Under the pieces are notes generated by a model that was not told the origin of the DNA, ran no database searches, and saw only the letters and a program-made list of their open reading frames with translations. The translations under genes were made by a program, and so were the position numbers. This document shows, piece by piece, positions 574 through 47,246 of a stretch of 64,000 bases of DNA; position 1 is the first letter of the stretch; each line of letters begins with the position of its first letter. Where the stretch lies: the NCBI RefSeq assembly GCF_032854445.1, contig NC_088303.1, positions 5,711,501 through 5,775,500 of the forward strand. Reading direction: 5' to 3'. The DNA is from Liolophura sinensis. Its lineage: Eukaryota; Mollusca; Polyplacophora; Chitonida; Chitonidae.

Positions 574-3500
574 ATGACATCAAAACCAAGATGGGGTTAC
601 AAAAGAAGCGCCATGGTGTTGAGGCCGTGGATCGTGCAGCTGTTGGTCAGAGGGGATTTAAAACAGAGGGCCCAGAAAGTGCAAGTTTTGCAGGTAAAAT
701 TAGGAATACTATAGTATGTTACAACAACAACGCTGACAGTCACTGACATTTCACTGCAGTGACAGAAACGAGAGACTTCACCCTACAACGACGTTAGCTC
801 GATCGACAACAAGTCCTTGAGTTTGAAACACATGAAGTTCATGGCGCAGCAATCGTTGGTGTTGATCCGACCCTTCAAATGTTGATTGTGAAAAGCAGGA
901 CAAGGTACTTAAATGATTTTAAAATTTTGAAATGACGTCATATTATATACTAGTTTAGTTGCAGATTTAGTCATTGAGCAATGCAGTTGCAACAACCCCA
1001 TATTTGTTGGATTGACGGTAAGGAACATTTACTGCTGTTCACACAGACATTAAAACCTCCCTCTAGTATAAATCGATGTTAGTTCTTTAAGTCAAATGAT
1101 TGCCATTGCTATTTCCCGAGTCTTCTTGTCAGTTTAAAGTGAAACCATATTAAAACCCAAACCTAAACCAGACAACCCTAAAAGAAACAGAAGGTTACAC
1201 TCTAACATGAGTTTTACTGTTGTAGAATGAGAAAAACAGTCACTCAGACAGGTATTTATATTTTCGAGCATCTGGAACCTCGTAATGAAGTGGAGGGGAT
1301 AAATAACATGGAATTAAATGATTGAAAACACTGATTTTTATCAATTGCTAAAGTTTATAGCCCAACAGAACATTGCAACTGTTATATGTGAAGGCGAGAT
1401 ACATCCTGATTACTTTTCCAGAAATCGTTTCGTACCTTGAAGCTATATTATTAATTTTTTGTCCACAATCTTCTTCAGTGCCTATCTCACCTGGGTTAAA
1501 TATTTGTTCCACCTCCACTACTCTAGTCATGTGACCAGATAGTGTGCCGATGAGGCTCAGAGCAGCTATAACATCACCGAATATGAATTGGTACAGAATG
1601 TAGCTAAGCTTGTTAATATGCATCGGTTGTATTTGAAATTGTAGTCACTCTGTGTCATTTTTAATAACTCTTGTCAAGTGTGCTATTTCCAATAACTGGA
1701 GCTTACAGTTCAGCGACTTAAAGCTGTGACTAAAATCAATGTCAACTGAATGTTTCTATAAATTATCTAACCTGTTCTTAGGGTGTCCTAACCAAAAGTA
1801 GTCCATGGCAGTAACACAAATTGACTAAATAGACCATCTTCATGGTTTTGATGTAATCTCACAACAGTTGATGTTCATTTATGCTAGGGAAGTTATAATG
1901 GGTCTGAACAGTGGTGAATGCTCTTTACCATTAGTATGACACATTTGGGGCTGTTTTGATGAGAGTTACCCGACTTCCCACTACTAGTTCCCAAGTCAAA
2001 CACTCAACTGCTTATGTGTAGTGGATCATTAGTTTAATAGTTTTGACTGACACAGAGGCCCATAACTCTATGCAGCTATGATAATGTTAATCCGTCATAA
2101 CACTGAGTCCAACCCTACCTCTCAAAATTTCGATGCAGATTTTCAAACGTCAACTTGATGGAACTGATCTCAATGAGGTGTGTGGCACTCCAACTTACAA
2201 GAGTCATTTTTTGTGTCCTTGTTGCTTGAAGACCTTATTACCTAACTGCCATATGTTCCACCCACATAAATGTTTGATTTTGAGTGTAGTCAATAGCGAG
2301 CATGTGCGTGGAGGAAGTGAGGGCTTGAGATAGAGGAATAATTTTTAGTGTTGCACCTCTAGCATACGGCTGTGGCATGCTAAAGGGACAAAAATGTTCT
2401 GGTTTGGTTTAAGATTTCAGGGATGTAAAATCAGTGACATAGCTTTCCAGGTAAGTGATGTAAATAAACAGCACTGAAAAAGCAGAAAGTTACATCTCTA
2501 TTTAACTATAGGCGCGTTCTTGGCTGTCACAACAGGTCCAAATATTAAAGTCGTCGCACCAAAAACTTATTGGCTAGATCAGATGAAGCATTACCCATGT
2601 ATAAACCACTTTTTGCCAACCACTATTTTCCACTCCTCCAACTTTTTGTATTTGCTAAAGCGCCACGATATAGAATTAGTACAAAACTGAAGGACCTGCT
2701 TAAGCCCTCTTGTAAATGTTAGTAAAGCCTAGTTTTGGAGGCCATCAAGCAGAATATTGTATTTGATCTAGTTTAGATGTTTTAGATCTGTGGAGGAATC
2801 CATGATCATGGTCATCCTTGATCGTGTGCTATAGGGCAGCGGGAAGATGTCCATAAGAAACAGTTTAACTTATTTAACCATACAAATAAAATATTGCAAG
2901 TACCGGTATTCAGAATAGTTATTTCCATATGAATGAGCAGTGGTGTAACTTAACTTTTTGGGGAGCTTGCTGTCAGGGCAAGTTGACAATGAAAACTGCA
3001 TGCCCACACTTATTTTCACTTGCAATGCCACAACGCAACCATATCTTTTACAATTTATTGCAAACATTGATATTAAAATTGTACTGAACAAAAACCACTA
3101 ACTGTTTCAATCCACATTTCTTTATTTTCATCTTACATGTTACTCCAGTGAAGTGAACAATTTCAGATTTGTGTAGTGCCATTCATTCTTGTAACTTTTT
3201 GATGCATTCATTTATTAACCATACACTAGTCCACTCAAGTACTAATATATAAGTGCAGATCTTTCAGCTTGGTGCAAGGATCCCTGTTTTAATCCACTTG
3301 ATCGTTCGTTTTTATCTTACATGTGTATGCAGTGAAGTGATGAAAAAAAAAATTAATAGTGACTTCAGATTTGTGTTGTGCCATTCATTCATGTAGCTTT
3401 TTGAACCTGGGATTTGTTTTTGACTGGTAGTTATTATCCAGTGAATCTTCTCTGTTGCCATAAACGTGTGGTAAACAATGTGGTGACCAGCCTCCACTGA

Positions 3501-6500
3501 GCCATCTTGGTGATGCGCAGAGAATGCTAGACATAAATACACTGCTGATTTTATGGCACGGAAGCGTCCGTGTGCGGGAGAGTACACGCTGCACCCTGTG
3601 CAAAAGCCTCGTTCTGATTTCATCCACCTGTCTGAAAGCAGCGCATGGCCGAAGTGAAGTTCGCAATTTTACAGAAATATTTTACGAGTTCAGCTGAAAT
3701 ATTCAAGCAAGTGAAGGATTATCAGCATGTGCAATTCAGTTCATAGATTATTTTTATTTTTTATGCACTGGTGGGCTACCAAAAAACATGATACCCTTTC
3801 CCGATTTCACTTGCATTTGGCAAGCGGGTAAGCATTAAGTTACACCAGTGATGAGATTTATACAAAGTAATGCATAAATATGTTCTGGTTGTGAACCAGT
3901 GTAAAGGTTAAATCTTATATCTCAGATATAGTTTCCTTGTAGTCATTACTGTTAACTATTTTCATCTTTGACATATAGTTGAACTCAGCAGGTTCACTCT
4001 AAGGCATCGGACTCATCCACAAGTAATAGGTACTGGCAACTTTGAACAAGGGATGTAACTCTATACATCATGTCATTTTACAATGTGCCAAGGAAATGCA
4101 AATCTTGATACCATATCATGCTCATACGAGTACATCTACTTGAAGCAAGTCACTTATGAATGGTTATAATGCCTTGGAGTAAACGTGCTGAATTCAACTT
4201 CATGTCACTCTGGAATGCAAATTGGTCTTCAAGGTGAAAGTGAAAATTGATGAGATGAATGGTGAAAGTATTTGAAGTACATTAGGAAGCTTAAAAGAAA
4301 GCACAAATCTGTTCAAGAATGTGTTTGCAGTTGTGCTAGCAAGTCATAGCCCATGGTCTTTTTCAGTATTTTGCAGCTGCCAATGTAGGCTTGAATGAAT
4401 GATTATGGCTTAACGCCACATCGGCAATATTTCAGCCATATCTTGGCGATCCAATGTAGGCAGCATTTTCAGCCCAAATACAGCTTCTTAAACATTTTCC
4501 CAATTTTGACAAACGGAGTCAGAATGAATCATTTACATGCATGGTGTAAGTGTAAAATTATAAATACACATGTTTACCTGATACATCTTTGTGTACTCTC
4601 CTGAGGCAGAGGCTGTAGCCTTGCAGTCTACCAACCTCTGCTGAACACCCTGCAAATCTTTATATGACGAGCTGGAGGCCGCTAATCCACATTGACCAAT
4701 GGAAACGAACCTGTTAAGACCTACCCGAAAGGGATTGTTGTGGTTTCATATCAGAAGTCAGTTCGACTCAGTTGAAAAGTTTGAACCTCTGGATTACATG
4801 TATGTAATAGAGATAGGTTTGCCAATGATCGTTTGGATATAATCTTTTAACATGAGTTGGGGATTCTGAGGATGGGCTCTGTGTGGAGACTGCTGGGCTA
4901 AAACTACCATACTCTTCAACGCCGTGAAGCATGTGGGCTTCCCTGTCTCTGTTTGCAACGTTAGCCGATACATAAAATATCTTTTCCCTGAAGAGTATGC
5001 ATTGAAGGCTTTATCTCCGATGTATGCACAGAGCTGTTTTGCCCTGAATTTCTCACAAATGGTAACATCAGCTTATCTTTTGAATTTATTTAATTTAGTG
5101 GTCAGTGGTCAACTTCTTCTTTCTTAATCACGAATATTAATGAAGACACACCTCCACCCCTGTCAGTGAAAATTTGTAGTCTTTTGCAAAGGCTTTTAGC
5201 TTGTATGGAATGCTCATTGGCAAATAGTGATTGGGTCAATCACAGCTTGTATCCGAAAAATGGGTGTCTTTCGATAGAGCCTGAAACCATAAGGTTAGAG
5301 GGTCTGTCGTAGAGAGAGTAATCTTTGTGATGACAAAGGCTTAATTTTAGGTCATTTAATCCTTAAAACTGAGTGAATCGCGATGCATTTTGATCCTTGC
5401 ATTTTATTTATATCTGGAACTTCTTGTTATCATTGTTGATCAGTTATGACAAATAGAATTTTATTGATGACCTCGGTTTTTCCCTTTCAGTTAATGCTAT
5501 ATTGTGATCATGTTAAAAGCATGCCATTTCAGCTGTCATCTGAGAGATACTAGACTGAAGAATACAAATTGCTTGTTGTGAATGGACAGGAAGTGGATTT
5601 CTTTGACAGGTGATGCTGATACACCTCAGGGCAGGGATTTACAGTACAAGTACTAGTGTTTGAACTCTTATAGGGCCATTATTACAGATGTATTCATGGT
5701 TTTCTGGCTTACCGTCAAAAATATTTCCTGTAGGTGAATAGAAAGCCTTCCAGTTCAAAAACAGGAAAATTGTAAAAAAAAAAAAAAAAGAAGAACTCAT
5801 TAAGGTTGAACAGATTTAAAAGGTGAGTATTAAATTTTGTTATTCCCTGTTTTAATTTTTTAGGTTTGGTTTCCTGGTTAAACACAAAGTAAAAAAATTG
5901 GAAAAAAAATTTCCTTTCTGGCCTTATCCTATTTTTTCTGATACGGTTTGGGTATTCCCCCCACAACTCCCCCCCCCCCCCTTCTCCATGTGTTACTGTC
6001 AAAATAATCCATGAAATACATGGGGAATTAATCTAGTGCTTGTACTTGTAGTTTTGGTATACATGTAGGGTATAATCTAATGATCTCTCCCTCTCTGCCT
6101 CAACCTTAACATCCTCCCCCCCCCCTCCCCCCAACCCCAACCCCCACCTCCACCCCCTCTCACCCCCTTCGGGCAAGTAGAATCTATTACATTCACTTGC
6201 AGGTCTTTTGTCAATGTAATTTAAAGCTTTCAGGGAGAAAATTGTCAAATTAGGGATGTGTGTAGAGAGAGGTCTGTTGAATGCCCAAGACGTGCACAGT
6301 GTGGTGTGAACATGCCTCAGGCAGTGCTGTTGTAAGCTGTGGCCAGCTGTGTTTAGGCTAACCAATCAGCAGGCTGGCTGACATAGCTTATACGCAGAGC
6401 CCGTCAAAAGATAACACAATGTGAAGCAAATTCATTTATTTTCCCTCGTAATAAATGATTTTGTTGAAATCAAATGTTATTATAAATAGTGAAAAATTCT

Positions 6501-9500
6501 GCTTATATTTATAAAATGGATCCAGTGAAGCAGGAGGTAATGGCTGAGTTAATATAGGCTTATATCTGTCTGAACTTGCAGAGGTTAAAGCCCATGACTA
6601 GCACAGTGGTGTCACGGAACAAGGTGTTTCGGCACACAATCATCTGTATCGCTTCTCGGCCTTTTGGCTAAGATCAAAGTGTAGTATCTGTTCTTATCAG
6701 CTTAATATCTGATACGTCCTCCATTGGAGGACATCGATATTAAACTGATTTTTGGAACTCGGTGAGAGACTTGGAGCTTGCTCCATCCTCGCCACGGGTT
6801 AGCCTGGTATTGCAGTACCTCCAGGAATGGCCCACTCCTTTTTCAAATCAATGTCAGACTAGTATACATGTATACCATTCTTACCCTCTGCTGGTCAGAT
6901 CAGAGTGAAATAATGTTGTGCAACATAACACAGTGTGTTTATGTCAGTGTTTTGTAACTGCATTTTTTAACATGCATGCAAAATCTATTAATTTCATGCT
7001 GGGATCTATTGTACACTAGGCCACACCAATTTATAATTTTGTTGTATGATCAGAACGACTCTTTTTTTTTAACATGTTGGATGCGGTTATAAAACTAAAA
7101 CTAACAAATCATCTGTTGGAAATGTTGACTGTCCTAGCAGTTTTTCCTCTTAAAGTCATGTTTTCTGGTTCAGAAAGCCGTTATAAAAATCTCTTAATAA
7201 AAATGTCTGTCAGACAAAATAAAAATGTGGTCTCATTTTTATTCCAGTTTTGCATTTTTTTATTGTCGGCTAGCCCTGAATACACTAATATTGAAAACTT
7301 ATCTTAACTTTGTCGTGTCATTTTACGTAACTATGACACTGTACCTTAAAATCACAACAAGCATTCGTTAAGTATTGCCACACAATACACAGTCCTATAA
7401 ACTGAAACGGGATAATATAGAACATGCAAAACGATAAAATACAACCTGTATCAAAATGTGTACTAAACGCGTGTGCAGAATGTCAATGAAAAGGTCAGTC
7501 GATGTGAAAAAAAAACAGTCCCTCAATTCAAGCCCCACACCTCGTCATCGATAGTGCACCAGTAAAGACAAATAATAAACATATGACATGTATGTGTAGG
7601 AAAAATGGAAACAAGACAAATGCAAGTTGTTATTATTTCCTGTGTTTTGTGTGCAGAATGTGAGAGGTCCACGACGTTCAGATGGTAGTGTGATGAAGGA
7701 ACTAACGGACGGACAAGCCTACATCAAGGCTATATTCACCGCAGAGGCGATGAGGGACTACAGTGATAAGTGGTGAGCTACAAGTAATGGCCCTCAAGAA
7801 TGCCTGCTTTTTAGCAGATGTACATATAGCTTGACACATGGCTCCCTTTAACTCTTGAAATCCTCGAAAATACTTTATTTTGTGTATAGATTTACAAAAC
7901 CTTGAAATTTCTTGAGAGTTCATTTTGGAACGTCGTAGTTTTTGAGGTGTACATGAGGTCTACTTCATCATAATATCGAAAAATGTAGGGGCCTCCGTGG
8001 CTCATTTGGTTAGTGCGCTAGCACAGAGTAATGACCTAGGAGTCTCTCATCAATGCAGTCGCTGTGAGTTCAAGTCCAACTCATGCTGGCTTCCTCCGGT
8101 CATATGTGGGAAGGTTGCCAGCAACCTGCGGATGCTCGCGGGTTTCCCCCGGGCTCTGCCCGGTTTCCACCCACTGAAATGCTGGCCGCCGTCAGATAAG
8201 TGAAATATTCTTGAGTACGGCATGAAACACCAATCAAATAAATAAATGAATAATATCAAAAACCATCCTCTGTCTCTTGGTTTAAACAAGTTCTCGCCAC
8301 AACATTGCTGAAATATTGCCGATGTGGCGTCAAGCCATAGTCATCCATTGGTTCATTCATTAGGCTTCCAGCTGTAAGTAATGGCCCTCAAGAATGCCTG
8401 AAGATTATTGCTCTTATTATTGTTATTATTTCTGTTGCTCAGCGGCTTTTGCAACTGCATGAAAACCGTGACCGCTGTACATTTTATAACAATACTAGGT
8501 TCAGAGGATAGGTGCTGCACTGTTTCGAACTTTCGGCCACCATATTGATATCTGAAAAAAATCTTTAAGTGTCTTCTCCTCGAGAACAGCTGAACTGAAT
8601 GACCTGAAATGACCTGATGTTGCTAGAACATAACCAGGCAAATATAAATTGCGGAGTTTGTGCCTACATGCCTACATGTCAGAAACTCTGGAAGACCAAT
8701 GTGACCAAGAATTTCTGAAATTGGAAACGAAGAATACTTAACTTGGTAAAGTTTGTGCTGCTAATTACGAATCTGTTGTTGTTTGTCCCCTGTGTTTAAT
8801 AGTTTTGTGACAGATTTTGACAAAAGTTGAAAATCCAGAAACTTTTTTTTTGCCCACAGACAGAATACTTGTTGCATTAAATAAAAGTAACTTTTTGAAA
8901 GATTGAAAAGATTGAAAGATTAATGTTCTTTGGTCATCTTCAAATTCTAATTTAATACTTTTGCAGCTGTATCATCTCAAAAATTTTGATATTTGGAGGT
9001 CACATGACAGGAGGTTTTTGTAGCTGTAAAGCTGAAAATTGCTGAGTAGAAAGGTTTATATATGTGCTATCTTTGTGTTGCAAATTGTTATACTGTGTTA
9101 ATAAATACAAGACGTGTAAGGCTTGAAAAATAGTACAAAAAAGGCTGGTTTACCACATTTGGCACATTTATGTGTACATGTTGTATAATCTATGAACAAG
9201 TGCTGTACGTCTTGATTATATTGATGAAATAGTAAAAATATTTTTTTGAAATAGCAATCAATGAGTGAATAAGCGCAAAATGACAGATTTCGCAAAATGT
9301 GTACGTAAGTTGAACATACCGTAAATGACCTAAAATTCTGTCCATGACTAACTTGACCATTTTTCCAGATTGTGAGGGTTCTGTTGATTTAAGTAAGGAA
9401 TTTTGAGGTTTGCTTGGAACATGAGCTGATATTCTACTGGAAAGCTGTAAGTTCCAGCACCAAAAGCAATATTTTGTGACATTTATTTGCCTCTAAAAAT

Positions 9501-12500
9501 TCACTTTTGTGGATAAAATTTTAGGTCGTTTAGGTTAATTTAGAGCACAAATATGCATAAATGCTCCTCAGTTCTTGCTGCACAAATGCTCTCATTGTCC
9601 TCTTAATCATTTTATGTTATGCAAAGAGTGCTTGCCAGCTTTAGTCATATTCAAACTGATTCTGGATACGGAGTAGGTACATGCATATATAATCCGTTGA
9701 TGACACACCATTATTTAAGATCAGGAAAACGTGTATGTAGTCAAGGGGATGCAATTTTATACATATAATTGTACCTTTTAATGATTGCAAGATTTACTGC
9801 CAGAAAAAATGCTGTATGTGATCAAGGGGAGAAAACTATGTTCAGTGGGATTTTTCAGGTTTATGTTAAGTTAATAGAATATGTGTGTCATATTTAACAG
9901 AACAGTCTGCTACAAACGCAGAACACATTCTAGCATCATTCAGACAACAGGCTTTCCGTTTAAATTAACAGATTACTTTGTTGAGTGCATGCAACTCCAC
10001 ACCATCTGCCTACTTCTTCAGGTAGGCATTGACTACAAATTGCCCGTCAGTAATGAGGTAACACTAACTGATGTAATAAATTCATTGAGGTATGGTTGTA
10101 ATCCAGGCTCATGGTTAAATAAATAATGTCAATAGCCTTTGTGGTACATATTCTTGTCCACATTCCATGTATGTTTGAACTGATCTTTAAGTGGAAAAAG
10201 GGCAAAATAGCAGATTTCGCATTATGTGTCTGTATGTATAATATAATCGAGAGCACAGATATCTAATAGTGCCAAAATTCTCCATGGTTCTGACCACAAA
10301 TTTTATAAATTTAACATTATTTGTATAAAACTTTACCTTTACCTAGATTTTCTGAAAATCGCTGGACAATAGTCGTGGAGAGAAATTTGTTTTACAATAG
10401 GTGGACCAACATGCTGTTAGGACAAACTGCATCCAGTAACATAGTGTTCACTACTGTCTCTGTGACTCAAATTTGTTTGTTTTTATTACAGAATTTCCTG
10501 ACATGCAACTCTAAAATCATTCTGTTATTAGATCACATGCTACAAGATTTAACATACATTTCATTTATTAAGGTTATATCACGCTAAAACCTGTCAATGA
10601 TATATGACATTGTCAGAAGCAGGGTTTAGAGTAAAGTTGATAAAAGCTTAGGTAACTGCTGTGACTTTCCCTAAAAAACATATCGGACTCTGCCCATTCC
10701 GTTAGCATGCAACTTGTTTTTTAATAATGGGAGACTCGACAATGAGCTAAACAGAAGGTCCAAATGATAGTAGTATGCAACGTTCTCCTCTGTGACATTG
10801 CTGTGCTTGTGTTCTTCATGTATGTTTTATGATCACACTTACATATACACCGATAATTGTGATGTAGGAAAGGAAAAAAACAAATAAGTTTACAGCTCCT
10901 GATACAGACAGGAAGGAGATTTATGATTTCCCCATGATGACATCACCCAGGGCCATGAGTGCTTGCCATCCAAACTGTGCTTATGTAGTTTGACATTATG
11001 GGATAGAAAAGGTTTTACAACTACTTTCCATCTGCAAGGATATGAACTTCAACATATGGATGTGTAGAGCGAGTGTTGTTACGTGTCACTAAAACCAATT
11101 TTACCTGACTAAAACCAATTTTTATAACAAGTGTGAATGATTTTATAGAGAGGTGAATATAGGCGAATGGCTAAAAAAAATAGACTATAATGCTCTATGA
11201 AGTCTTCCCTTGTATTGCTAGTGCATCTACAACACCATTACTTCTTATATATAAACACACACTGCAAACTGTGTGTGAAGACAGGCTTGGAAGCATTGCA
11301 ACTGTATGCTGTTCTAGCTCCTTTTGGGATTGTAACTTCATTTGTCTTGTTTTCATGTTTCAGTCAGGATGATTCCGCTCCACCCAGTATTAATGATGCT
11401 TTGCTGATCCTGACTGATTACCACATTGAATTTTTGCCACATGAATGCTGTGTAAGTTGCTATATTCAGTTCCACATGTCAGTATAGTTAGTCTTGCTGT
11501 CTGGAAATGGTTTCAAGCTGTGTGGTCTGTTGTGCATTTCTACATTGTACCTTTGTGCTGACAGTTTATGGTCTCACCAGTAACGTACTCATTTATTATT
11601 TATAAGAGATCAGTGGTCAATCCAGCTTGGACGTGAGATACCTTTGTGTGGGAACTGATGCATAAATTTTGGCTTTCAGTACAAGTCTGACACTATGGGT
11701 CGAAAAGGAGTTACAACATTATATTTAGCATTTAAATGGTGTAACTGATGTGACCTCACAATGAACGGTGGAAAGGGAAAAATTGTGTCTGCTGTCTATC
11801 ACAATGAACAGTGGGAAGGGAAAAATTGTCTGCTGTCTATCACAATGAACATTGGGAAGGGAAAAATTGTCTGCTGTCTATCACAATGAACAGTGGAAAG
11901 GGAAAAATTGTGTCTGCTGTCTATCACAATGAACAGTGGGAAGGGAAAAATTGTCTGCTGTCTATCACAATGAACATTGGGAAGGGAAAAATTGTGTCTG
12001 CTGTCTATCACAATGAACAGTGGGAAAGGAAAAATCGTCTGCTGTCTATCACAATGAACAGTGGAAAGGGAAAAATTGTGTCTGCTGTCTATCACAATGA
12101 ACAGTGGGAAGGGAAAAATTGTCTGCTGTCTATCACAATGAACAGTGGGAAGGGAAAAATTGTCAGCTGTCTATCTCATTAACCTCACTTCATCTTTTAC
12201 CTTTTTTTAACTTTAATTGTGACACTATGATTGATTTGCAGCATTGGTCAGAGTTTGTTGTTGAGGTGAAACGGTTTACTTTGTGGTCATACCAGGAAGG
12301 GTTTGGTTTGAAACAGAGTCCTGTTAACAGGTACATTCTATTGTTTGTTGTAAAACATGTGGTTATGCTGTTGATTACGGAAGTGTTGAACGCCCAGGGA
12401 TGTACATGTACACTGAAGACGCTTTACCAGAGATGTTGGTCCAAAAATACATATTTTCTGGTCAAATCAAATTTCCTGTATGAATCAAGATTAACTTTTA

Positions 12501-15500
12501 ATCATTTGTTTTCTGTAAATACAAATTTCCTCTATGTACCAAGATTAACTTTAATTATTTGCTTTTAGTAAATACCAGTCTTAACTGTACTATTTATGGT
12601 GTTGCATTTGGGCTATTCTAAATAACAGCACATTTTCCATTGGATTATGTAAACACAGTCATATTGCCGGACTCCAGACCACATGCTTGAAGCATGGGTT
12701 TATTCTCAGCCTTGGAGAAGAAATTTCATTCCTCGCATTCACTTTTGATTGGGGCCTTGGTGACAGTAAGCAGTTGCTAGCTTAGGGTCGTTTGTGCAGC
12801 CTTACGTTTGTTGAAAGACCATGCATCTTTGTTCCACCAATATGGTATAGTGTTACACATGGGAAAGGTCCTTAGATGTTCATCCATATTTCTGCGGCCA
12901 AAAAATTGGCCATTTTAGAAGTGAAAATTCTTTTTATGCTGAAACAACAATCTATCTATCAGTCAATCAGTGGATCCAGCTTTATCTGTGATGTATATTG
13001 TGAAATCTACTATCATCAGTGATTTCAGTCTGATTAAAATCGGAGGGTATGTATGTTGCTTTGCTATCAACAATCAAACGCGCTTTCTATTCCAGCATGT
13101 TCAGTGACATTCGCTGAACTGAGAGGTTATTGACTTCAATAGCGACCAATCATTATGAGGCTTTCTAAAGAGCTTGTTGTCGCTGGAAATAATTGATGTC
13201 TGTTGGAAAAAAGGGGAATTCGCATTTTCCTGCAATGGAAGTACAAGTAGCTTGGATTGGCAAAATGATGGACACGCCAAGGAAACTGTATTATCGCTTT
13301 CCTTCAAACACAGATATAAATTTGTCATAGTGAAACAGCTGACTTTGTCGCCATGTTGTTGCTTGGCTCTGGTATGATGATATTCCGCAAGTTAGCCTCA
13401 GCTTTGGCTGTGTCTGACTGCTGCCTTTTTTCAAGCAGTGCGTCTGTAATTGGCTGAAAGAGACACACTTCTTGAATGTGCCACAATAAGAACTGTTTCA
13501 GATTGTTGTTAGCGGAGATATACATACGATCTGATTTTAATCAGATTGCAGTGATTTATAGACCAATATTATTAATGTTGTAATTGACAAGCGCTCAGTT
13601 TAATCAGCAGTGTTAAAGAAAATATTATGTACACTGCACAAGTATCAAGCCGATCAGTTTTTGACCTGTGAATTGGTGTATTAAATCCAGCTTTAGCTAC
13701 CTAAAGAGAAACGATAAGTTAAGAAAATCCATATGACAGGCGTATGTCTATTTGAGTACAGGAAGAGTTTGTTGTACCTCAAGCCTGAATATAATTTTTT
13801 GGACAGTGTCTGAGATTTGAAGCCTTGTGACTCACATCTGGTGTTATCTTTGGCTTGTAATACACATACATGTGATTTGTATCCTCAGGTGTGCTCATTC
13901 TTCAACAGGTATCCTCAGGTGTGCTCATACTTGAACAGGTATCCTCAGGTGTGCTCATACTTGAACAGGTATCCTCAGGTTTGCATATACTTGAACAGGT
14001 ATTCTCAGGTGTGTTCATACTTGAACAGGTATCCGCAGGTGTGTTCATACTTAAACATGTATCCTCAGGTGTGCTCATACTTGAACAGTTGTGCGGTACC
14101 TGTTGTTTAGTGCCTTATACTGACCGTGTTCATTCTGTTTTAATACATTTCAGCATGGATAATGAAGGGGTAAAGAAGAAAGCTGTTGCTATGTGGAAAC
14201 AGTGGAGGTATGTTTATAATTCTATTTTCATTAACAATGTTATGGTTACTAGCTCACCTGTACAAGCTTATGTCGTACCCTGAGTGTCAGCGTTGGCATC
14301 CAATGACATGGATTTCAGTGTTAAGCAAAATTTTAGGGGTGGCATCTTAAAAAGTACTGCCGGCATTGAGATCAGGGTTCGCACACATATAGAGCATAAT
14401 TACATGAGGGGGATATTCCATTGTTGATTTGGTGTGCACATATTAAATAACAAACGCATTACTGCACAATTACAACACAATACCATATCTGACATCTAAT
14501 GTTCACTGAACCATCTCCCATGATCTACCCAACAAGGGGAGATAACCTAGTCAAACAGGTCAATCTTCGGCCATGTTTCTAAATATAGCGGCTTGAGTGA
14601 GTTGATGATGAAGGGAAACCCTAGATAAAACCGGCTGTTGATTGTACACACAAAATCAAGCAAGTCAGTAAACATCTGGAAATCTTCATTTAGATGACGC
14701 TTAAAATAACAGCCCAAATTTTTTGACATCATCAGTATGTCTCTTTAAATGTCTGAAATTGTTACTGTTTGCATGAGGTTATTATTTCCCCTCTGCTGTC
14801 TTTGACTTTATGCTACATGTAATGAGTTTTGCTCATGTTTTCATCTGTATGTTTCTGATTGCCAAGAATTACGAGTGACATACATATATGTTATGACAGG
14901 GAGACTCAAGCCAGAGGAAACACATTGGACTCCAGCTTGAGTAGTATACCTCTGAGTCAGCTGCTGGATGAAATGGGGATGGTCAGTGACTCTCCTGTCA
15001 TGGAGGAAGATGAGGCCCAGCCACAGGGTCAAGGTCAGTGGCTAGTAGTGGTATGAGTTTACCTCTGGGTCAACTGCTGAAGGAAATGACCACAGAACCC
15101 TATTTAACAATTTAAGCATTTTCTGATTTAACTGTGCACCAAACACTCTGTGACCAATAAGCATTTCTGCCTACCTTGCCCAGCCCAGCCATGAAAAGCT
15201 TGACATACATCAAAATCAAGAGGGGTGTGTAGCAATGTCAAGAGGCCATCACTCGCAGCCTCATCAATAGATGATACTTTTCGTCCTCTTTTTCAAGAAT
15301 TTGAAGCCTTCATCAATTAAACTCATACCTGTGCAAGGATTAGACAGTTTCCATTATTTTCCTACCAAACATGTACCTGTACACCAAAAAGGGCTGGCTG
15401 GTCGCAAAAACAAAGATTTTACACCCTGTTGATGAACACAGAATTACATACCCACCTGAAAAACAGAAGTTGTAATAGGTACGGATTCTAAATGCGGATG

Positions 15501-18500
15501 GTCATGGATAAAGATGTGGTCCAGCGACATGGTCAAGATTAGTGGTTAGCAGTTGTAATCAGCATTTGTTCTGTGTCTCTGAGCACATGTTAACACCACA
15601 TGTTACAGTGGAAAGAAGGATGTTCTCGTATTATCTGTGAAGCTTATGTCAATACTTTTCTGAAAAGTAAAACTGTAATTAAGATGAGAAAAATAGAGCA
15701 GATTCAATGAAAATAAATACCTTTAATTTTAGTGAGTGATTTGTTCATATATATTGTGCTTCATGTTGGTTTTGAAGAGCTGGCGATTTCAAAAAATAAG
15801 TGAAATATTCTACAGCATAAACCACCAATCAAATAAATGAAATAAATATTCAGGTTCTTTGTTTAAAGCAGACATGTACATATTTATACTTACATATTAT
15901 TTCAGGTGATTTGCATACAGAGACAAATGTTTGTTTTTGGCCTGGCTTTACACAGATTTTCTTCTGTTGAATAACAGTTCAGTTGTAATAAGAACATGGC
16001 AGTGTCCATGCTTTTTGTTATAGTTATTATTTTTGCTTCCATGATTGACCAGCCGGGATGAGAATTTCATCTGATTTCAGTTGATATTAAAGGAAAACAG
16101 CATTTTTAAAATATCTAAATCTTGGACCAAAATGGGCAAAAATAATCAATTTACAAATGGGGGTCATTTTCTTGTGGTAGAAGAAATTTTATCTGATTTA
16201 TTGAAAAGATTATCTTTCGGAGGTTAGACATGAACAGTTACCTTACAATTTGAGATTTCTCTTTATAGGGATACTGTAAATAAATTTACTTACATTTAGT
16301 TATCAGTGTTAAGAAAAGAAGTCTCATGTTTACATTCATGTTTAAGATCCACCACACATACCCCAGGATACTGCTCTGTCACTAACTTCAGGCAGGAAAT
16401 GGCCCACATTAGCTGATTATGATGAGGATTGTGGCATAGAAGATTTCATCATATCTGAAGTGGAGGAAAAAATATTAGCAGCAATACCAGGTAATCAAAA
16501 TGGTATAGTTTTGGGATGGTAGAGACTCTTTATTGACTTAACGTGTTCCTTGTTAAGCTCTCCGTAATCATGTGGCATTAAAGACGGTATAACCTTACAG
16601 TCGGAAGTGATACGTTGTAACGTTGTGGACATTGGGCACCAGTGAATATTGGGCACCAGAAAATATGTGTGATATTCTACACTGACAGTGTAATGCAGTG
16701 TTGTCACAGCCACCCGATTATCTGACTAGGGGTAACACATGTCAGAAAGGCTTGCCACAAGTGGACTCAACAGTCATGATCTTTCATCGGAATCTAAATC
16801 ATGTTTTTTGCAAAAGTGTCTTCAAAGTACTTGATGAGTGCATTGGTGTATAAAGGTTAGAATTATAATAGTGGCAAATTTCGTGTACATTAATGGGTTC
16901 CGTGACAGTTCCTAAATACATGTATGGTACACTGAACTCACAAAATCCTGCGGCTTTTGCAAGATTTTCTTGAGTACCACTTATTGTGAACTTTTTGCGA
17001 TTCATGTCCTCACCCATGAGACCTCTGATTCAAATCCAGCTCTAGCTAGTTCAGCTTACTGGCTTAGGCTGCATGTCAGCCAGATTTCCTACAATTTCCT
17101 ACATATATTCATTCATTAAGTCAATCAATCGATTTGGTGAGTTTAGTGGATGGATGTGTGCTGGTATAAACATGGCCACATGGGCTTAGTCAGTTGCTTA
17201 TTGTCACTAAAACCCAGCAATAGTGGTTCATTCGGGAAGGATTGTTACATACCTGGTTTCTGACATGCGTAACCGTAACTGCCCTCATAAAACTGAAAAT
17301 CATGTTAAGTACAGGGTTGAAAATTTAGTCAAATAAATACATTTAATTTCTTTTTTTCCCTTGCTCAACAGAATGGCAGCCAGGTTACCAGCCTCAACCT
17401 ACTCCAACTTCTGATTCCTGTAAATCTTCAGGAAATGCTTCCGAGTGTCAGAACACAGCCACTTTGAGGAAAGACTGCATGGCATCCACTGAACCGAAGG
17501 CCAAAGAATCTAGGCCAGGAAATGGTGGAGTGCAGAAAGCTTTAGATGACAATACGGAAATTTGCGGAGGAAAAGCTGATGGTACATTATCTAAGATTGT
17601 TTCATTAATGTTTTTTTGTGAGGTTGACAACTTACGACTGTTGTCACTGAAGTTGCATTTATTTATTTATTTAATTGATGTTTTACACCATTATGGTGGC
17701 CGGAAACAGGGTAGAGCCCAGAGGAAAACCCAAGACCATCTGCAGGTTGCTGGCAGACGTTCCCACCTGCGGCCAAAGAGGAATCCAGCACGAGCTGGAC
17801 TTACCTCACAGCAACAGCATTGGTGGGGGGCTCCTGGGTCATTGCGTCGCGTTGGCATGCTAACCCTCTCAGAAGAAGCACAAGTACTGAACAAATAGAA
17901 CACTTTGTCCAGTATAGCTGCTTGACATTGTCTACACATGAACATTGCAGTATTAATATGTGCCTTATAAATGCTTCTTTTCTTTCTGATTTGACTAATT
18001 TTTGTCTCAGGTATTTGCTCATTCTTTTGCTTACTCCTTGAGGCCTTTGTCAAAGATGTTGATGCTGAAGTGATGATGTCATTTGTAGATGTTGAGATAT
18101 GTTATTGTATTATGTAACAGGTGAAGCTGTTGTCATGACTGAATGCCAAGATACATTATTATCATGAGTAACAAGTGAAACCATTGTAAAAACTGGATGC
18201 TAAGATACATTATTATCTTGTATATCAGGTGAAGACATAGTTACAGCTGTTGATGCAGAGATACAAGTTAGCCAATCTTTGTGGGAAAACTTCCTGCTGA
18301 CGGCACGAGAGTCCCGTAAAGACGCAACCACCCAGGCGTGCAGTCAGACCATGCCCAGCTCACAGACCCATCAAATAGACACTTCAGGGGGTCACGCCAC
18401 CACCCCACACCTCCAGGGCCAGGTTACAGAAACAGAGGTTACAGAGGTGAGTGTTATGGAGGGATTTTCTGCAATATGGCAGTGTGGAATTTCAAAGCAG

Positions 18501-21500
18501 ATCATGAGCCTATGACCAGTCACTATTGACTTTCAGTTCCAAGGGAATGCTTAAAGATGCTATACCAGAGATTATGACAAAATCTGTCTGCACTTATCAC
18601 TATTACGTTGTAACTTTTTCAATTTTACAGTCATTTTAACACAACAAATAGCACGAGTGTGAATCTGATATTTGCTGGAAAGCAATAATGTGAACTGTAT
18701 GTGAGCAATGATTTCAAAACCATGACTATGAAAGTTCAGATTACAATGGAAAAGGGTTTTTTGGGTGCCTTGGTGGTCTAAGGGGTTGATGGCACTTACG
18801 AGGCACTTTGCATGTCATGAAATTTGCTGACCACTTAGCTTTCACTAGTATGGTGTTCACATCTGAATGTCTCTGGTGGTGAAGGTTGATGGTGTATTCT
18901 GGGCATATCGGCTGCCTCTGCCCATAGAACTTACCACCATCACACAATATTAGTGAAAAATTGTTATAAACATCTATCACATAAATCATCCAAATACAAA
19001 AGAAAATGTTGCTCTTTCTCTTTTCTGTTCAAAGCAAATTGTTTTCTGCTTTCAGAATGAAATAAACCAGGGAATGTCGTCTGAGGCCAAACAACTGAAC
19101 AGTAGCAAAAAAACTAGAACATCGTCAGTAGAGGCTCTTGAATCAACACCTAAAGGTCACAAAGAAAGGTCAGGAGTGATTCAAACTTCCCCCAGTCTTC
19201 TGTCATCCCCTGAGGAACCAAGATCCCCCAAGAAACCAAGTTCTTGTGGCAAAGTAAGAACTCCTGAGAAACCAAGATCATTTCAGGAAACAAGATCTCC
19301 AGAGAAACCTAAGCGCGCAAGGAAACAAAAAATCATCTGTGATGACGAACCGGTGGTCATAAATGACAGTTTTGTGGAAGATGTGCAGGAAACAGAGAGT
19401 GGTGCTCAGCATGACACCTTGGGAAAGGATAAAACTGGTGGATCTGACGGTTGCAAGGAAAGCAAGGTTAAGACTGCAAAGGATCAAAATGACAATGAAA
19501 GTCCTGTTTTTGTAGACATTAGCTCAAGTCAAGAACTGTCACCTGAAGCTTTTAAATCTACGACCAACAGCCAAAACGACCTTGAACAAAACAGGTTATC
19601 CTTGAATAAAACATCAAAAGCAAAGGGATTTACCGTGCAAACAAAGGAAGCATCATTAGAGAGAGATCTGTCAGATGTGATCATGCTTGAGGAGCAAGAG
19701 GAAGAAAACAGATTGCATCAGTTAAGTAAATGTTCAAGGTCGCATAGTCAAGGTCAGGAAGGTTTCTCTGGTAGGTTAGGATTTGATGAAGCGTCATGTG
19801 ATAATGGTGAGCTGCAGGGAGACAAGTCTTTGAACACAGTAGCAAATCGGCTGGCTTCACCCTTAGATAGATCCATCCTGAAAAGAAGGCTTTCTTCATC
19901 AGACTCAGAGATTTCAAGGTCAAAGAAAGTTTTTGTTCACGAACAGAAGATATTGAGGGAACGTACATGTAGCAGTTCGTCAGTTTGCCCTAATAAGAAT
20001 TTTACTCCTGTCAGGCTTGAACATTTGTCAGAAAACGATGTTACCACGGTGACAGTAAATCAGAATGAAAGAGACACTGTGGACAAAAGCAGGTTACAAG
20101 CTGAGGCTTCAGCTGATGTTGAGGTGACAAACCCTCCTAGTTTTCAACATGAGACTACTACCCTACATGAAAACAGGTTGTCCAAACCCACAGAGTTGAC
20201 AGCTTCCTCACCTGATGTGAAAGTGCCAAATGAAAATGCCCGAGTGGCTGATCGTGATTCTGGCACTTCAGTTGTACTGTCAGATCAATCAGAACAGCTC
20301 GATACAAACAGCCTCTTGAATGATGCCCAGATCGTCAGTTCTGGAGAGCTTATGACAAGCTCTGGAGAGCAGCTGATAAGCTCAGGGGAACAGTCTCTCA
20401 ATCAGCAGACATCAAAGGGCCAAGGGAAAACAGGTGAATGTTCATTTTTGTATCTAGTGGACTCGTACTTGTTATCAGATTGTCATCTCTCCCAGGGTGG
20501 GGTAAGGAGTCAAGTGTTTAACCCCCACCCCCCCCAACCTCCAGTTCACTGTATGTTAAGCCTACATATAGGTAAGTGAGAATAAGTGGTTGACGACACT
20601 CATATCACCATTTGTGCAGTCAAATGTTCATTGATGACCAGTTGTGTTCTATCAATATGTTGTGCTTATCACGTCGGAAAGTTTTTCAATGACTTGCCAA
20701 GGGCTGTTTTTTTACGAGCACTCCAGTTTCCTCCACCCTCTGGTTTCCTCCACCCTTAAAAGTGACCACCTTCATATAAGTGGAAAACTTGTGAGTTGTG
20801 TTAAGCAACACTCAGATAAGTAAGTAATGCCCTGTTATCTCTGCAGGGGTGCATTAATGGGTGTTGACAGGCATTTTGAAATCTGCACCCAGGAAATATC
20901 ATGGGTAGGACCCATGTTATATATATGACATGAAACCTAAAACAGCCTTGATATCGATTTGTTTCAGGTATTATTGTGGCCTCATCCCATGATATATTAT
21001 CAGAGAAGAAGAGTCCAACAGGACTGATGAGTGTTATAACACTGTCACAGCCGCGGACAACAGGTACATCAACCCCTCCACAATCTTTGTCATCCGGTCA
21101 ACCTGCTCCTCTTGGGACTCGTGCTGAGGACTCAAGCCAAACCACACCCAGTCATTCTCTACCTAGTTATCAACGGCCACCTCATGGGACTCATTCTGAG
21201 GTGTCACACCCAACCACACCCAGTCATTCTCTGCCCTCATATCAACCTCCACCTCATGCGACTACTAGCTCTGAGATGTCGCCAAAAACTCCACCTGTCC
21301 ACTCGCTGCCGTCCTACCAACCATCACACCAGCAATCTAGTTGCACCTCCAAGACAGCCAGTAGCCAAGGGAGTAAAAATTCCTGTGACAAGGTAAGAAA
21401 TGGCTACCCCTGTCTGTAATCTTGCTTTGAATGACCTATAACAGGAAAAGAAAATTAATAAGTGGGAAAGGTTTATTAGCAACCTACAGATGATTGTGGG

Positions 21501-21820
21501 TTTCATACAGTTGTGAACAGAGACCAAAATTCTCCTCAATCACTTGAGAACACAGTGAAGGTTGTTATTGTGGATGCCAGAGTTCCAAATTTTGTTTGGT
21601 CACATGAGTGTGGCATGTCAGGGATGATGTAGAGATAGCCCATCGCCAGTACGCCCTGTGTTCAGGTTGAGTTACGATAATTTGTTCCTCTTCCCTGTTG
21701 CAGACTTTTTGGGGATTGTTAGACAGCCCTCCTGTGTCACCTGCAGGTAGGAGGCTACTGGAGATGTCTTTCTCTGACGGTCTGATGAAGAAGATGGAAG
21801 CCTATCTGAGCAGGATGTGA
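574..21820 (+). CDS. ACD: Shelterin protein TPP1 (ACD) orthologue, 12 exons
   Basis: TPP1 bridges TIN2 and POT1 at telomeres and recruits telomerase through its OB-fold. Exons: 574-693, 7657-7772, 11364-11451, 12242-12330, 14154-14207, 14900-15033, 16347-16490, 17372-17581, 18229-18446, 19056-20433, 20968-21392 and 21704-21820; all introns are GT-AG and phases agree, giving about 1030 codons. The N-terminus MVLRPWIVQLL matches human VLRPWIRELI. Exons 2-5 follow the OB-fold (ALLILTD, EFVVEVKRFTLW). Exon 6 carries PLSQLLDEM, nearly identical to the motif just after the human OB-fold. Exons 7-11 are low-complexity: SPEEP/TPEKP repeats, a basic KPKRARKQK likely NLS, three SSGE repeats, and three PSHSLPSYQ-type repeats. 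The last exon encodes a short helix-like tail at the place of the TIN2-binding segment of human TPP1. Human TPP1 is about half this length. ATG 574 is first in frame after a stop at 565; ATG 613 has better context and fits the family N-terminus. An out-of-frame ATG at 591 overlaps it. Confidence 0.85.
933..940. promoter_or_regulatory. CRE palindrome in ACD intron 1
   Basis: Second perfect TGACGTCA in the window, 240 bp inside the first intron of the ACD-like gene. With the copy at 301-308 it brackets the likely transcription start. Function is inferred from sequence only. Confidence 0.35.
6113..6173. repeat. C-rich tract
   Basis: About 60 bp almost entirely C with scattered A and T, in at least eight runs of three or more C. 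The - strand therefore carries many G runs and could form a G-quadruplex. A long + strand polypyrimidine tract could also affect splicing of ACD intron 1. No function is shown. Confidence 0.5.
6648..6837 (+). ncRNA. U2 spliceosomal snRNA
   Basis: U2 snRNA pairs with the intron branch point in the major spliceosome. The 5' end begins ATCGCTTCTCGGCCTTTTGG as in animal U2. The branch-point recognition segment GTAGTA is at 6681-6686, inside the invariant GTGTAGTATCTGTTC. Stem IIa and the conserved GATTTTTGG Sm site (6747-6755) follow, then the two 3' stem-loops, including CTGGTATTGCAGTACCTCCAGG. Length is about 190 nt, the usual size for U2. It carries the extra A (ATCAAAGTG) also found in fly and worm U2. 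It lies in intron 1 of the ACD-like gene on the same strand. No damage is seen, so a functional gene is plausible, but U2 retro-pseudogenes are common and I cannot confirm a proximal promoter element. Confidence 0.93.
7984..8249 (+). mobile_element. V-SINE (RUDI-like), full length, with target-site duplication
   Basis: A complete tRNA-derived SINE in ACD intron 2. The head GGCTCATTTGGTTAGTGCGC resembles a pol III A box and GTGAGTTCAAGTCC a B box. The core contains CGGGCTCTGCCCGGTTTCC, the conserved V-domain type, and the tail is AATCAAATAAATAAATG. A direct repeat ATAATATC(G/A)AAAA occurs at 7970-7982 and 8250-8262 and marks the insertion. It serves as reference copy for the fragments below. 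Confidence 0.9.
9318..9536. mobile_element. MITE-like element, family A
   Basis: A 219-bp segment bounded by imperfect inverted repeats: the left end ACCGTAAATGACCTAAAATT and the reverse complement of the right end (ACCTAAACGACCTAAAATTT) match at most positions. No coding capacity. A related copy lies at 37905-38120, sharing GTAAGTT(C/T)CAGCACCAAAAG, and another at 33098-33452 has similar ends. No clear target-site duplication is visible, so the exact ends and superfamily are unknown. Confidence 0.55.
11758..12178. repeat. Minisatellite, 41/43-bp units, 10 copies
   Basis: Ten copies of a unit containing CTGTCTATCACAATGAACAG, with successive spacings 43, 41, 41, 43, 41, 43, 41, 43 and 41. The 2-bp difference is GTGTCTG versus GTCTG. 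The array lies in ACD intron 3, ending about 60 bp before exon 4. Open frames on both strands here are the array read through, not genes. Confidence 0.95.
13878..14088. repeat. Minisatellite, 30-bp unit, 7 copies
   Basis: Seven copies of a 30-bp unit built from ATCCTCAGGTGTGCTCATAC and TTGAACAGGT. It lies in ACD intron 4, ending about 65 bp before exon 5. Because 30 is a multiple of three, it stays open in two + frames (a PQVCSYLNRY repeat), but it is intronic. Each unit contains CAG|GT junctions in the sense of the gene. Confidence 0.95.
15785..15845 (+). mobile_element. V-SINE 3' fragment, degraded
   Basis: Contains AAGTGAAATATTCT and CACCAATCAAATAAATG, the 3' end of the V-SINE at 7984-8249, with changes between. 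It lies in ACD intron 6. Confidence 0.6.
17657..17890 (-). mobile_element. V-SINE, near complete, minus strand
   Basis: Starts with the reversed tail (TTTATTTATTTAATTGATG), then the reversed core CATTATGGTGGCCGG and GCAGGTTGCTGGCAGACG, then the reversed tRNA-like head ending near GTTGGCATGCTAACC. It is missing the part around AAGTGAAATATTC. It lies in ACD intron 8; the open frames across it are SINE sequence. Confidence 0.85.
18060..18290 (+). repeat. Duplicated start of ACD exon 9
   Basis: The 3' splice site and first ~40 bp of exon 9 (exon starts 18229) are echoed twice upstream, near 18117 and 18171. Each echo has (A)ACAGGTGAA or ACAAGTGAA, then a GTTGT/CATTG segment, then AGATACA. The ATACATTATTATC stretch is shared by the two upstream units. 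A looser fourth unit may start near 18058 (GATGTTGATGCTGAAG). Only the last unit continues into the open exon. Confidence 0.6.
18765..18980 (+). mobile_element. tRNA-derived SINE, family 2
   Basis: A head GTGCCTTGGTGGTCTAAGGG resembles a tRNA A-box region. The 3' end TAGTGAAAAATTGTTA is the tail motif shared with copies at 43012-43331 and 59830-60165. It lies in ACD intron 9. Confidence 0.5.
20740..20826 (+). mobile_element. V-SINE-related 3' fragment
   Basis: CTGGTTTCCTCCACCC, ATATAAGTGGAAAA and TTAAGCAACACTCAGATAAG correspond to the core and tail of the V-SINE type, in ACD intron 10. Diverged from the reference copy. Confidence 0.5.
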
Positions 21821-45075: not shown

Positions 45076-45283
45076 TAATGTTATGGTTGTGTTGAAAAGA
45101 AGATGTGACCAAATTACCTTATTTGGTCTAACCCTCCTAACCTAACCTAATAAAATATTATGCTTTGTGGCAAATTTCTTACATTTGCCCATGTATATTG
45201 TCCTACATGTGCCTTTTCAAACAACTTGTTGGGGGAAGTTCTGGTTAATTATGTCATGATTACCTGTTTGTCTGTTCTTCAAG

Positions 45284-45906
45284 TTCTCCAACCATGTCCC
45301 GTCCAGCCCCTATCAACACCAAGCTAGCCTCAGGTCCTCTCCCAGATGAACCTACCACTCCCACCATCAGGGTTAGTCGCCCCAGCTCCTCCATTGGGCC
45401 ACACCCTCACATGCCCTACCTCCCAAATGGGAAGCCTCATTTGGACCAGCTCCGCCCACTTCCACCCTTCAGTCTGATTCCGTCCAGTCCCACCCAACAG
45501 AATATGGGCCTACCAGAGTCCAGCCATCCTAACCAAGTCAGCTTGGCTGACAATTGCAGCAGACAGGTGCGAAAACAGATCACTGTCCTTAACAACGGCT
45601 CCTTTGATGAGGGCGATATGAACACGAGCTCAACAGAGAGCTTGATGACTTCAGATACATTGACGCAGGTGGAGGTGCTACAGAAAGGGGTGGATAACCC
45701 TGTGTTTTCATTTGGAGAAGAAGAACTGCGAAAGATGAGAATCCGTCCACGTAACTCGAGTGAGGGCAATCTGCGAACTACCACCAAAGGGGGCGTCCTG
45801 TTACCTCCCCTGAGGGTTGAAGGTTCGCATTTCTCTCCGTTGACACCATTCCTCAACCCTAAGGAGATGGACTCCTTGACCGTCCCAGACTCCTTGTCTT
45901 TGGCTG
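45284..45906 (+). CDS. Large internal exon of an unrecognised gene
   Basis: TTCTTCAAG acceptor, 623 bp open throughout, CTG|GTAAGT donor in phase 1. It encodes about 207 residues, rich in Pro, Ser and Thr, with no transmembrane segment: TMSRPAPINTKLASGPLPDE, then RPSSSIGPHPHMPYLPNG, a Ser/Thr segment DMNTSSTESLMTSDTLTQ and a mixed-charge FGEEELRKMRIRPRNSSEG. It looks like a disordered cytoplasmic N-terminal region with possible phosphorylation sites. Codon use is clearly coding. The upstream partner is probably 38724-38806. No following exon of this frame is seen up to 57.9 kb. I do not recognise the family. Confidence 0.7.
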
Positions 45907-47246
45907 GTAAGTCTATCTTTCTTTCTGCAATACAGATACGACTGGATATACGGTAAATTTTGGAAATATGATGCTGGAGTGTTGTCCAATTTTATGCCAT
46001 TGTTTTCTTTCTTAAAAAGGCATGGAAATCATGTTTATTTGCCAGAAACTACTACTTCAGTTGTTTGTTATTTTGTTCTGAACGTCTGCATTATGTTTGG
46101 CAGAATTGTGTTTTGTGGTCATGTGGTCATATTTCTTCATGGATGTAATGCTCAGCTTACAGCGGTAAGCACAAGAACTGACCAGTTTAAAATGTGGACA
46201 TGTAATATCAGCATGCACAGATGAGACTCTCATTATTTACACTTTTTGTGAGAAAAGATGAGTATATAATGGTAAACTTCAAACTGAAGCTGAAGTAACT
46301 ATAGAAATGTTTGAAACTAGAGGAGTATATGATGATCACTGTCAAACGGGATTAAAAAAAAACTTAGATAATGCAAAATGTAAAATGAAATAAAGCAAAC
46401 AAACCAGAACAGAATCATTTTATACAGCAGAGACAGTAAAATCTGAAAATATCTGGAGACTGATTCAGAGAACAGTCCACAAAGCATGCATGGACCAAAG
46501 AGTAGACCTTTTTTTTATATGGAAAAGATATGCAATAATTACCAAAAATATGGTTATGAATAACTCCGATTTCATTCAGCTAAGGATGGTCTGAAAACTG
46601 CAATTTCCACAATCTTAGATCTGTGTGAAAGGGTTGCTTACAGTTTAGATTCCATGACATACAGTACATGACACCTGGTCTTCTCCAACCAATGATGTTT
46701 TACAAATGCAAGGGTTGCATGCTGATCCATTATGTTTGTATCAATACAAACTTCAGAAATTCCAGACAACTGGAAAGGTGAAGCTTTAAGGAAAAAAGTC
46801 ACTGTGAAAAAAGTACATGTGCATTAATTTATCAATTAAATTAAAATTGCAAGATTCAGTCAAAGTTAAATTGTTACCAGAACAGAAACCCTTGAGATAC
46901 TTAAATGTTGGAACACATGGAATTGCACTTCTCTGTCTAACTTGTGGTATTATTATTGGGTCGTACACAGCATGTATTTTATGTAAATTTTACCATTTTC
47001 CAAGTAACATAATGATTCGAAGTGATCCCGCCGCCTTTATAGGGACAATTAAGAATTTTTTTCGAAATCTGATTAATTTCTTGCAAGAAAAACTGATATG
47101 TTGGCAACGTATTGAAATGACTTCATTCTAAGCCCTGTGTAAATTTTTACATACCATTACTAAAATCTAAAGAAAATACAGTAGTACAGTGGTGGTAGCA
47201 GATTTGTGGTGGCAGCTTCACAGCCTAATTTGGTTTAATAAAGGTT

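Follow-up and report, generated by a model that had tools for sequence, protein, structure and literature searches.

A predicted TPP1 (ACD) gene in the chiton Liolophura sinensis with a conserved front part and a long, low-complexity tail

Human TPP1 and the chiton locus

Human TPP1 (ACD; PF10341; PDB 7qxa, 2i46 and 5xyf) is the described protein with which the gene analyzed here is compared, a predicted 12-exon gene located at positions 574–21820 on the forward strand of a 64,000-nucleotide stretch of the genome of the mollusc Liolophura sinensis (assembly GCF_032854445.1, contig NC_088303.1, positions 5,711,501–5,775,500), hereafter referred to as the window. In the literature on which the comparison draws, the human short form starts at Met87 (PMC8262337), the TEL patch comprises Glu168, Glu169, Glu171, Leu183, Leu212 and Glu215 (PMC10630336), Leu95 is the site of a telomeropathy mutation (PMC10630336), and the segment spanning residues 266–320 is necessary and sufficient for POT1 binding (PMC5394241). 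The chiton protein resembles human TPP1 in its OB-fold profile, in the motif VLRPWI and in the motif LSQLLDEM that follows the OB-fold, and differs from it in length (1,030 amino acids, as against 458), in the absence of identity at all six TEL-patch positions, in POT1- and TIN2-binding motifs that are unrecognizable, and in a partner POT1 that apparently lacks the HJRL insert. For ciliate TEBP-beta (PF07404), a weak match of exons 2–3 (12.3 bits, E-value 0.13) is of the kind to be anticipated from an OB-fold of TPP1, whereas the score is far under the cut-off of that family (26.6) and the remaining parts match nothing. We consider it very probable that the locus is a mollusc TPP1 gene, single copy as far as searched, with a conserved front part and a tail that is mostly a flexible tether. 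What is new, and well supported by the sequence comparisons, is a mollusc member of an already known family; no mollusc TPP1 was found among the titles and abstract openings listed in a literature search, which does not by itself establish that none has been reported.

Gene model and identity

The gene was rebuilt from splice sites and reading frames as 12 exons separated by 11 GT-AG introns, with compatible phases throughout, and the joined exons comprise 3,093 nucleotides encoding 1,030 amino acids and a stop codon. Taken as a sequence prediction from splice sites, the exon chain of the original prediction holds, being phase-compatible and carrying its motifs in order (VLRPWI at residues 15–20 and PLSQLLDEM at residues 173–181). 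The start codon is located at 574–576, and an in-frame TGA (565–567) 9 bases upstream of it indicates that exon 1 does not encode the N-terminal extension of the human long form; an extra exon upstream of exon 1 is possible. The stop codon is located at 21818–21820, with an AATAAA sequence approximately 320 bases downstream. In the front part, exon 1 (574–693) carries the start and MVLRPWI, the OB-fold match begins in exon 2 (7657–7772) and continues in exon 3 (11364–11451), which together with the end of exon 2 contains the counterpart of the TEL-patch knuckle of human TPP1, and exon 4 (12242–12330) encodes the OB-fold strand SEFVVEVKRFTL (human counterpart AEFYLQVDRFSL). Exon 5 (14154–14207) encodes a segment downstream of the OB-fold, and exon 6 (14900–15033) encodes PLSQLLDEM.

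The OB-fold assignment rests on a sequence profile: residues 1–200 match the Pfam TPP1 family (PF10341) with 27.6 bits, over the curated cut-off of 26.5 (E-value 3e-6). Exons 2 and 3 alone yield an E-value of 0.0011 for TPP1 and exons 2–4 one of 1.8e-5, the latter at 25.0 bits, which is slightly under the cut-off. A phmmer search of the PDB returned seven sequences at E-values of at most 1 (best 0.0027), six of which are named TPP1/ACD (three of the seven alignments were inspected), and the best alignment spans the region from VLRPWI to LSQLLDEM. The seventh, 8soj_B, is a 1,049-residue chain named STN1 and is matched at positions 284–453; since these positions equal those matched in the TPP1 chain 8sok_E, it is probably a fusion that holds TPP1. 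Because the exon chain came from a reader that was seeking TPP1, shuffle and whole-window controls were run using a piece of human TPP1 (residues 6–175 of the 458-amino-acid form) as the query. The real chain scored 21.4 bits against this piece, and the best of 20,000 shuffles scored 12.0 bits. Among 2,136 window frames the runner-up, itself a frame containing exon 1, scored 8.3 bits. In a tblastn search of the whole window with the same piece, which is independent of the chain, exon 1 ranked first (E-value 0.088), exon 6 ranked second (0.86), and exons 2 and 4 appeared lower (6.3 and 19), both with the correct strand and order. Exons 3 and 5 were not among the matches listed, and no exon was significant alone. 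The profile score, the PDB matches and both controls bear out the TPP1/ACD identity that had been proposed from the letters of the sequence.

Several results count against this assignment. The whole 1,030-amino-acid protein scores 23.0 bits for Pfam TPP1, under the cut-off, and no Pfam family is matched by exon 1, exon 4 or exons 5–6 when each is searched alone. A six-frame search of the genome (609 Mb in 632 contigs) with PF10341 found nothing, a result that is uninformative since no control was detected either. The TEL patch, a surface that serves a function in human TPP1 and does not define the family, is identical at none of its six positions in the PDB alignment, two of the replacements being conservative (E168C, E169Q, E171D, L183I, L212W and E215Q). 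The human POT1-binding segment, a short and fast-evolving motif, is unrecognizable in the chain, with 24% of shuffles scoring equally, and so is the TIN2-binding motif (human residues 510–544), for which 5% of shuffles reach an equal score and the alignment is out of the expected register; the latter comparison concerns a short motif with no relatives at intermediate distance to serve as a bridge. A PDB search with the last 48 residues found no TPP1. The numerous OB-folds in existence and the weak scores of single exons also suggest an alternative in which the gene encodes another OB-fold protein, for example, one with an OB-fold of the CST or RPA type, that resembles TPP1 by chance. We regard this as extremely improbable, since both profile and PDB matches point to TPP1, VLRPWI and LSQLLDEM flank the domain in order, the shuffles fall short of the score of the real chain, and no OB-fold profile of any other family outscored TPP1 in Pfam at the thresholds used.

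Conserved motifs and the copy of exon 6

Within the front part assigned to TPP1, VLRPWI is identical at six of six positions to human V94–I99, including Leu95 and Trp98 (PDB alignment, numbered from Met87). LSQLLDEM is identical to the human sequence at all eight positions, and the score of the human piece was reached by none of 3,000 shuffles; with the preceding proline included, eight of nine positions are identical. PLSQLLDEM was considered as the mapped POT1-binding motif and rejected, as it ends at human residue 261 (by the alignment and the Met87 numbering), ahead of residues 266–320. Neither SQLLDEM nor LRPWI together with TPP1 was found as text in the literature searched, in which sequences shown in figures are not searchable. 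We infer that exon 7 is the likeliest site of a diverged POT1-binding segment.

When the N-terminus was searched in the genome, only the six exons of the gene itself were matched; with the single genomic match of exon 10 (see below), the gene looks single copy. Intron 6 contains two segments resembling exon 6: one (15056–15088, forward strand) resembles the SQLLDEM segment with 85% DNA identity and reads LPLGQLLKEM, and the other (15501–15557, forward strand) resembles the 3′ end and adjoining flank of exon 6 at 81% DNA identity, its donor GT being changed to AT. Their alignment scores (46 and 50) exceed the maximum of 38 obtained when the intron was resampled 300 times with a Markov model, and the two matches are read as a putative dead tandem copy of exon 6. 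We tentatively entertain the possibility, doubtful as it is, that PLSQLLDEM is an ancient TPP1 contact site unexplained by the described structures, that TPP1 holds an HJRL-less POT1 without helix 1, and that exon 6 was duplicated and the copy decayed.

POT1 and the other telomere proteins of the same genome

As judged from sequence matches, exons of POT1, TIN2, a TRF-type Myb protein and TERT are present in the genome that carries the TPP1 gene. For POT1, a search with PF02765 yielded one match, under cut-off, and at this site a human POT1 query yielded three matches in order (E-values 2.2e-4, 0.018 and 0.73). A tblastn search of 19.8 kb with human POT1 yielded 14 matches, nine of which are in order over human residues 9–630; six of the nine have E-values of at most 0.001 and three of 0.20–0.45, and the other five of the 14 have E-values of 1.3 or more. 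The pieces of OB1, joined roughly by hand, score 97.9 bits.

In this POT1 locus, which is located on the minus strand of contig C7, an exon encoding CPQC joins one encoding CIKC in phase through a 641-base GT-AG intron, so that 18 residues lie between the two zinc pairs, as against 117 in human POT1, whose zinc pairs are located at 382–385 and 503–506. A tblastn search with human POT1 found no match inside the 641-base intron, where a skipped exon might still lie, and a genome search for HJRL with PF21375 found none over cut-off, with two weak matches elsewhere (best E-value 0.73); because no control was detected in the latter search, it does not alone establish the absence of HJRL. The HJRL insert appears to be missing from the mollusc POT1, in agreement with Myler et al., who in Genes Dev in 2021 reportedly described invertebrate POT1 proteins without HJRL and with variable inserts. 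In the structural account of the human complex, HJRL comprises residues 393–538 of POT1, and the second zinc pair belongs to the interface; helix 1 of the POT1-binding motif of TPP1 rests on HJRL, helix 2 is positioned between HJRL and OB3, and a 3-10 helix occupies the OB3 groove (PMC5394241). With HJRL apparently missing, the lack of a recognizable helix 1 would therefore be expected and may explain part of the unrecognized POT1-binding motif. Since the 3-10 helix seats in OB3, an OB3-binding part of TPP1 should exist; none was found by sequence in the mollusc protein.

Among the other partners, a TIN2 exon gives one match over cut-off (PF14973, 30.8 bits) in a search with a lax threshold, at which one bacterial control was also matched, under cut-off. 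The RNA-binding domain of TERT gives two matches over cut-off (44.2 and 28.4 bits). With the Myb domain of TRF2 as a protein query, an exon of the TRF-type Myb reading RTSVDLKDKWRN was identified (E-value 5.7e-10), together with two further weak matches on another contig (0.0098 and 0.069); a genome search with the TRF family PF08558 found no match, and no control was detected. The RAP1 Myb domain gives matches of 26.3 and 22.8 bits, both under the cut-off of 27.1, in a pair of collinear exons, and RAP1 is probably present in the genome.

The long tail

The tail begins in exon 7 (16347–16490), is of low complexity in exons 8 (17372–17581), 9 (18229–18446) and 10 (19056–20433), continues in exon 11 (20968–21392) and ends in exon 12 (21704–21820), which encodes the C-terminal residues and the stop codon and occupies the position of the human TIN2-binding motif with no recognizable similarity to it. 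The figures first given for it, approximately 830 residues beyond residue 200 and 459 codons in exon 10, are both correct, and its low-complexity sequence approximately doubles the protein relative to the human short form. Human TPP1 also has a low-complexity stretch ahead of its C-terminus. Residues 201–992 are composed of 15% serine, 9% threonine, 8% glutamate and 7% proline, and 638 of 752 sliding windows in this region fall on the disordered side of the charge-hydropathy line. This index is crude, a point that weakens the case for a flexible tether, since it also flags 54 of 100 windows in residues 1–140, compared with 19 of 90 in the human OB piece.

Codon usage was compared with that of 5,000 sampled intron windows. 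After training on exons 10–11, exons 7–9 together beat all of the windows, and after training on exons 1–9, exon 10 and exon 11 each did so. With the former training, the signal is weak for exon 1, exons 2–4, exon 7 and exon 12 taken separately, being reached by 23%, 4%, 9% and 8% of intron windows, respectively; for exon 12, training on exons 1–9 reduces the proportion to 1%. In the introns, read in one frame per intron, none of 4,530 windows of 142 codons and none of 2,749 windows of 459 codons is open. Open frames of the sizes of exons 7–9 do occur there (223 of 5,526 windows of 48 codons, 42 of 5,284 of 70 codons and 33 of 5,251 of 73 codons), which again tells against the model. By its codon usage and open frames, the long tail is genuine coding sequence, which the gene model predicts to be joined to the front part. 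Exons 7–12 might instead belong to another gene or form an optional 3′ part, the long tail then being a joining error or one of two forms. No similarity links these exons to TPP1, the join is a sequence prediction, and a transcript in which intron 6 is retained would read QWLVVV and then TGA, stopping within approximately 21 bases, so that a short TPP1 form without the tail is possible. We nevertheless judge this alternative improbable, as all phases fit, every intron is of the GT-AG type, exons 7–12 contain no Pfam domain of their own over cut-off, and codon usage trained on exons 10–11 fits exons 1–6 together, a fit reached by none of the 5,000 intron windows; these points establish coding sequence and a possible join, as distinct from an actual join.

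Four rows of tandem repeats lie within the coding exons, and all have periods that are multiples of three: 18, 36 and 21, in frame in exon 10, and 72 (24 residues) in exon 11, which also contains three copies of SLPSYQ. Of the other 17 rows in positions 1–23000, six have a period that is a multiple of three; the rows overlap, and one of the 17 extends 10 bases into exon 9. This pattern is suggestive of a tail lengthened partly by in-frame tandem duplication, as in the growth of a linker. Exon 10 has a single match in the whole genome and is therefore not derived from a recent, abundant transposon. A match of PTN_MK_C to exon 8 (E-values 0.15, 0.037 and 0.017) is under cut-off and was taken as chance.

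A role as a lineage-specific scaffold had been proposed for the tail and was not substantiated, and no binding motif was recognized in it. The length of the tail, the three SLPSYQ repeats, the 12 S/TQ sites of the complete protein, 10 of which lie beyond residue 200, and its 23 S/TP sites would suit a scaffold with partners of its own. Neither a TRFH-docking pattern (F/YxLxP) nor a tankyrase pattern of the RxxPDG type was found, and no Pfam domain exceeds its cut-off in the tail; a scaffold of this kind thus seems unlikely, if far from negligible, and a mostly passive, flexible tether is preferred.

Proposed function

On this reading of the locus as TPP1, the mollusc protein would join POT1, which binds single-stranded telomeric DNA, to TIN2/TRF on double-stranded telomeric DNA, as in other animals. 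Its OB-fold would bring telomerase, and for this the conserved N-terminal edge of the domain would matter more than an acidic TEL patch like that of human TPP1. The 830-residue tail would act mostly as a flexible tether linking the POT1 end with the C-terminal TIN2-binding end rather than as a new domain, a tether perhaps lengthened in part through in-frame tandem duplications. The full-length mollusc TPP1 model and the apparently HJRL-less POT1 provide a distant comparison for singling out the indispensable surfaces of TPP1: at the sequence level, the beginning of the OB-fold and LSQLLDEM have been retained, and the human TEL patch has not. The comparison offers a concrete test of telomerase recruitment outside vertebrates. 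The long tail as such is to be expected of a fast-evolving linker.

Surroundings of the gene and the mitochondrial contig

A U2 snRNA-like gene, separate from TPP1, is located in intron 1 (6648–6840, forward strand; RF00004, 194 bits, E-value 1.8e-41, model positions 1–192 of 192). Minisatellites are found in intron 3 (11756–12175; 41-base units, 10 copies) and intron 4 (13879–14088; 30-base units, 7 copies). Of the 37 stop-to-stop frames in the window with a length of 100 amino acids or more, 10 were searched in Pfam. A partial reverse transcriptase fragment at 62522–62902 on the minus strand scores 21.1 bits, under the Pfam cut-off, with weaker matches in other frames, and an open frame of 235 codons at 45249–45956 on the forward strand, which has no Pfam match at E-values of at most 0.1, is possibly an exon of another gene.

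Elsewhere in the assembly, one contig (C99) contains seven COX1 matches approximately 15.5 kb apart, corresponding to head-to-tail copies of the mitochondrial genome, and the arrangement is probably an assembly artefact. The contig was read with the invertebrate mitochondrial code, and genes except cox1 were named by eye, with tRNAs, rRNAs and atp8 not placed. The order within a unit is cox1, cox2 and atp6, followed by nad5, nad4, nad4L, cob, nad6 and nad1 on the other strand, and by cox3, nad3 and nad2 on the first strand; this is presumably the gene order of chitons and several snails, and it fits a mollusc.

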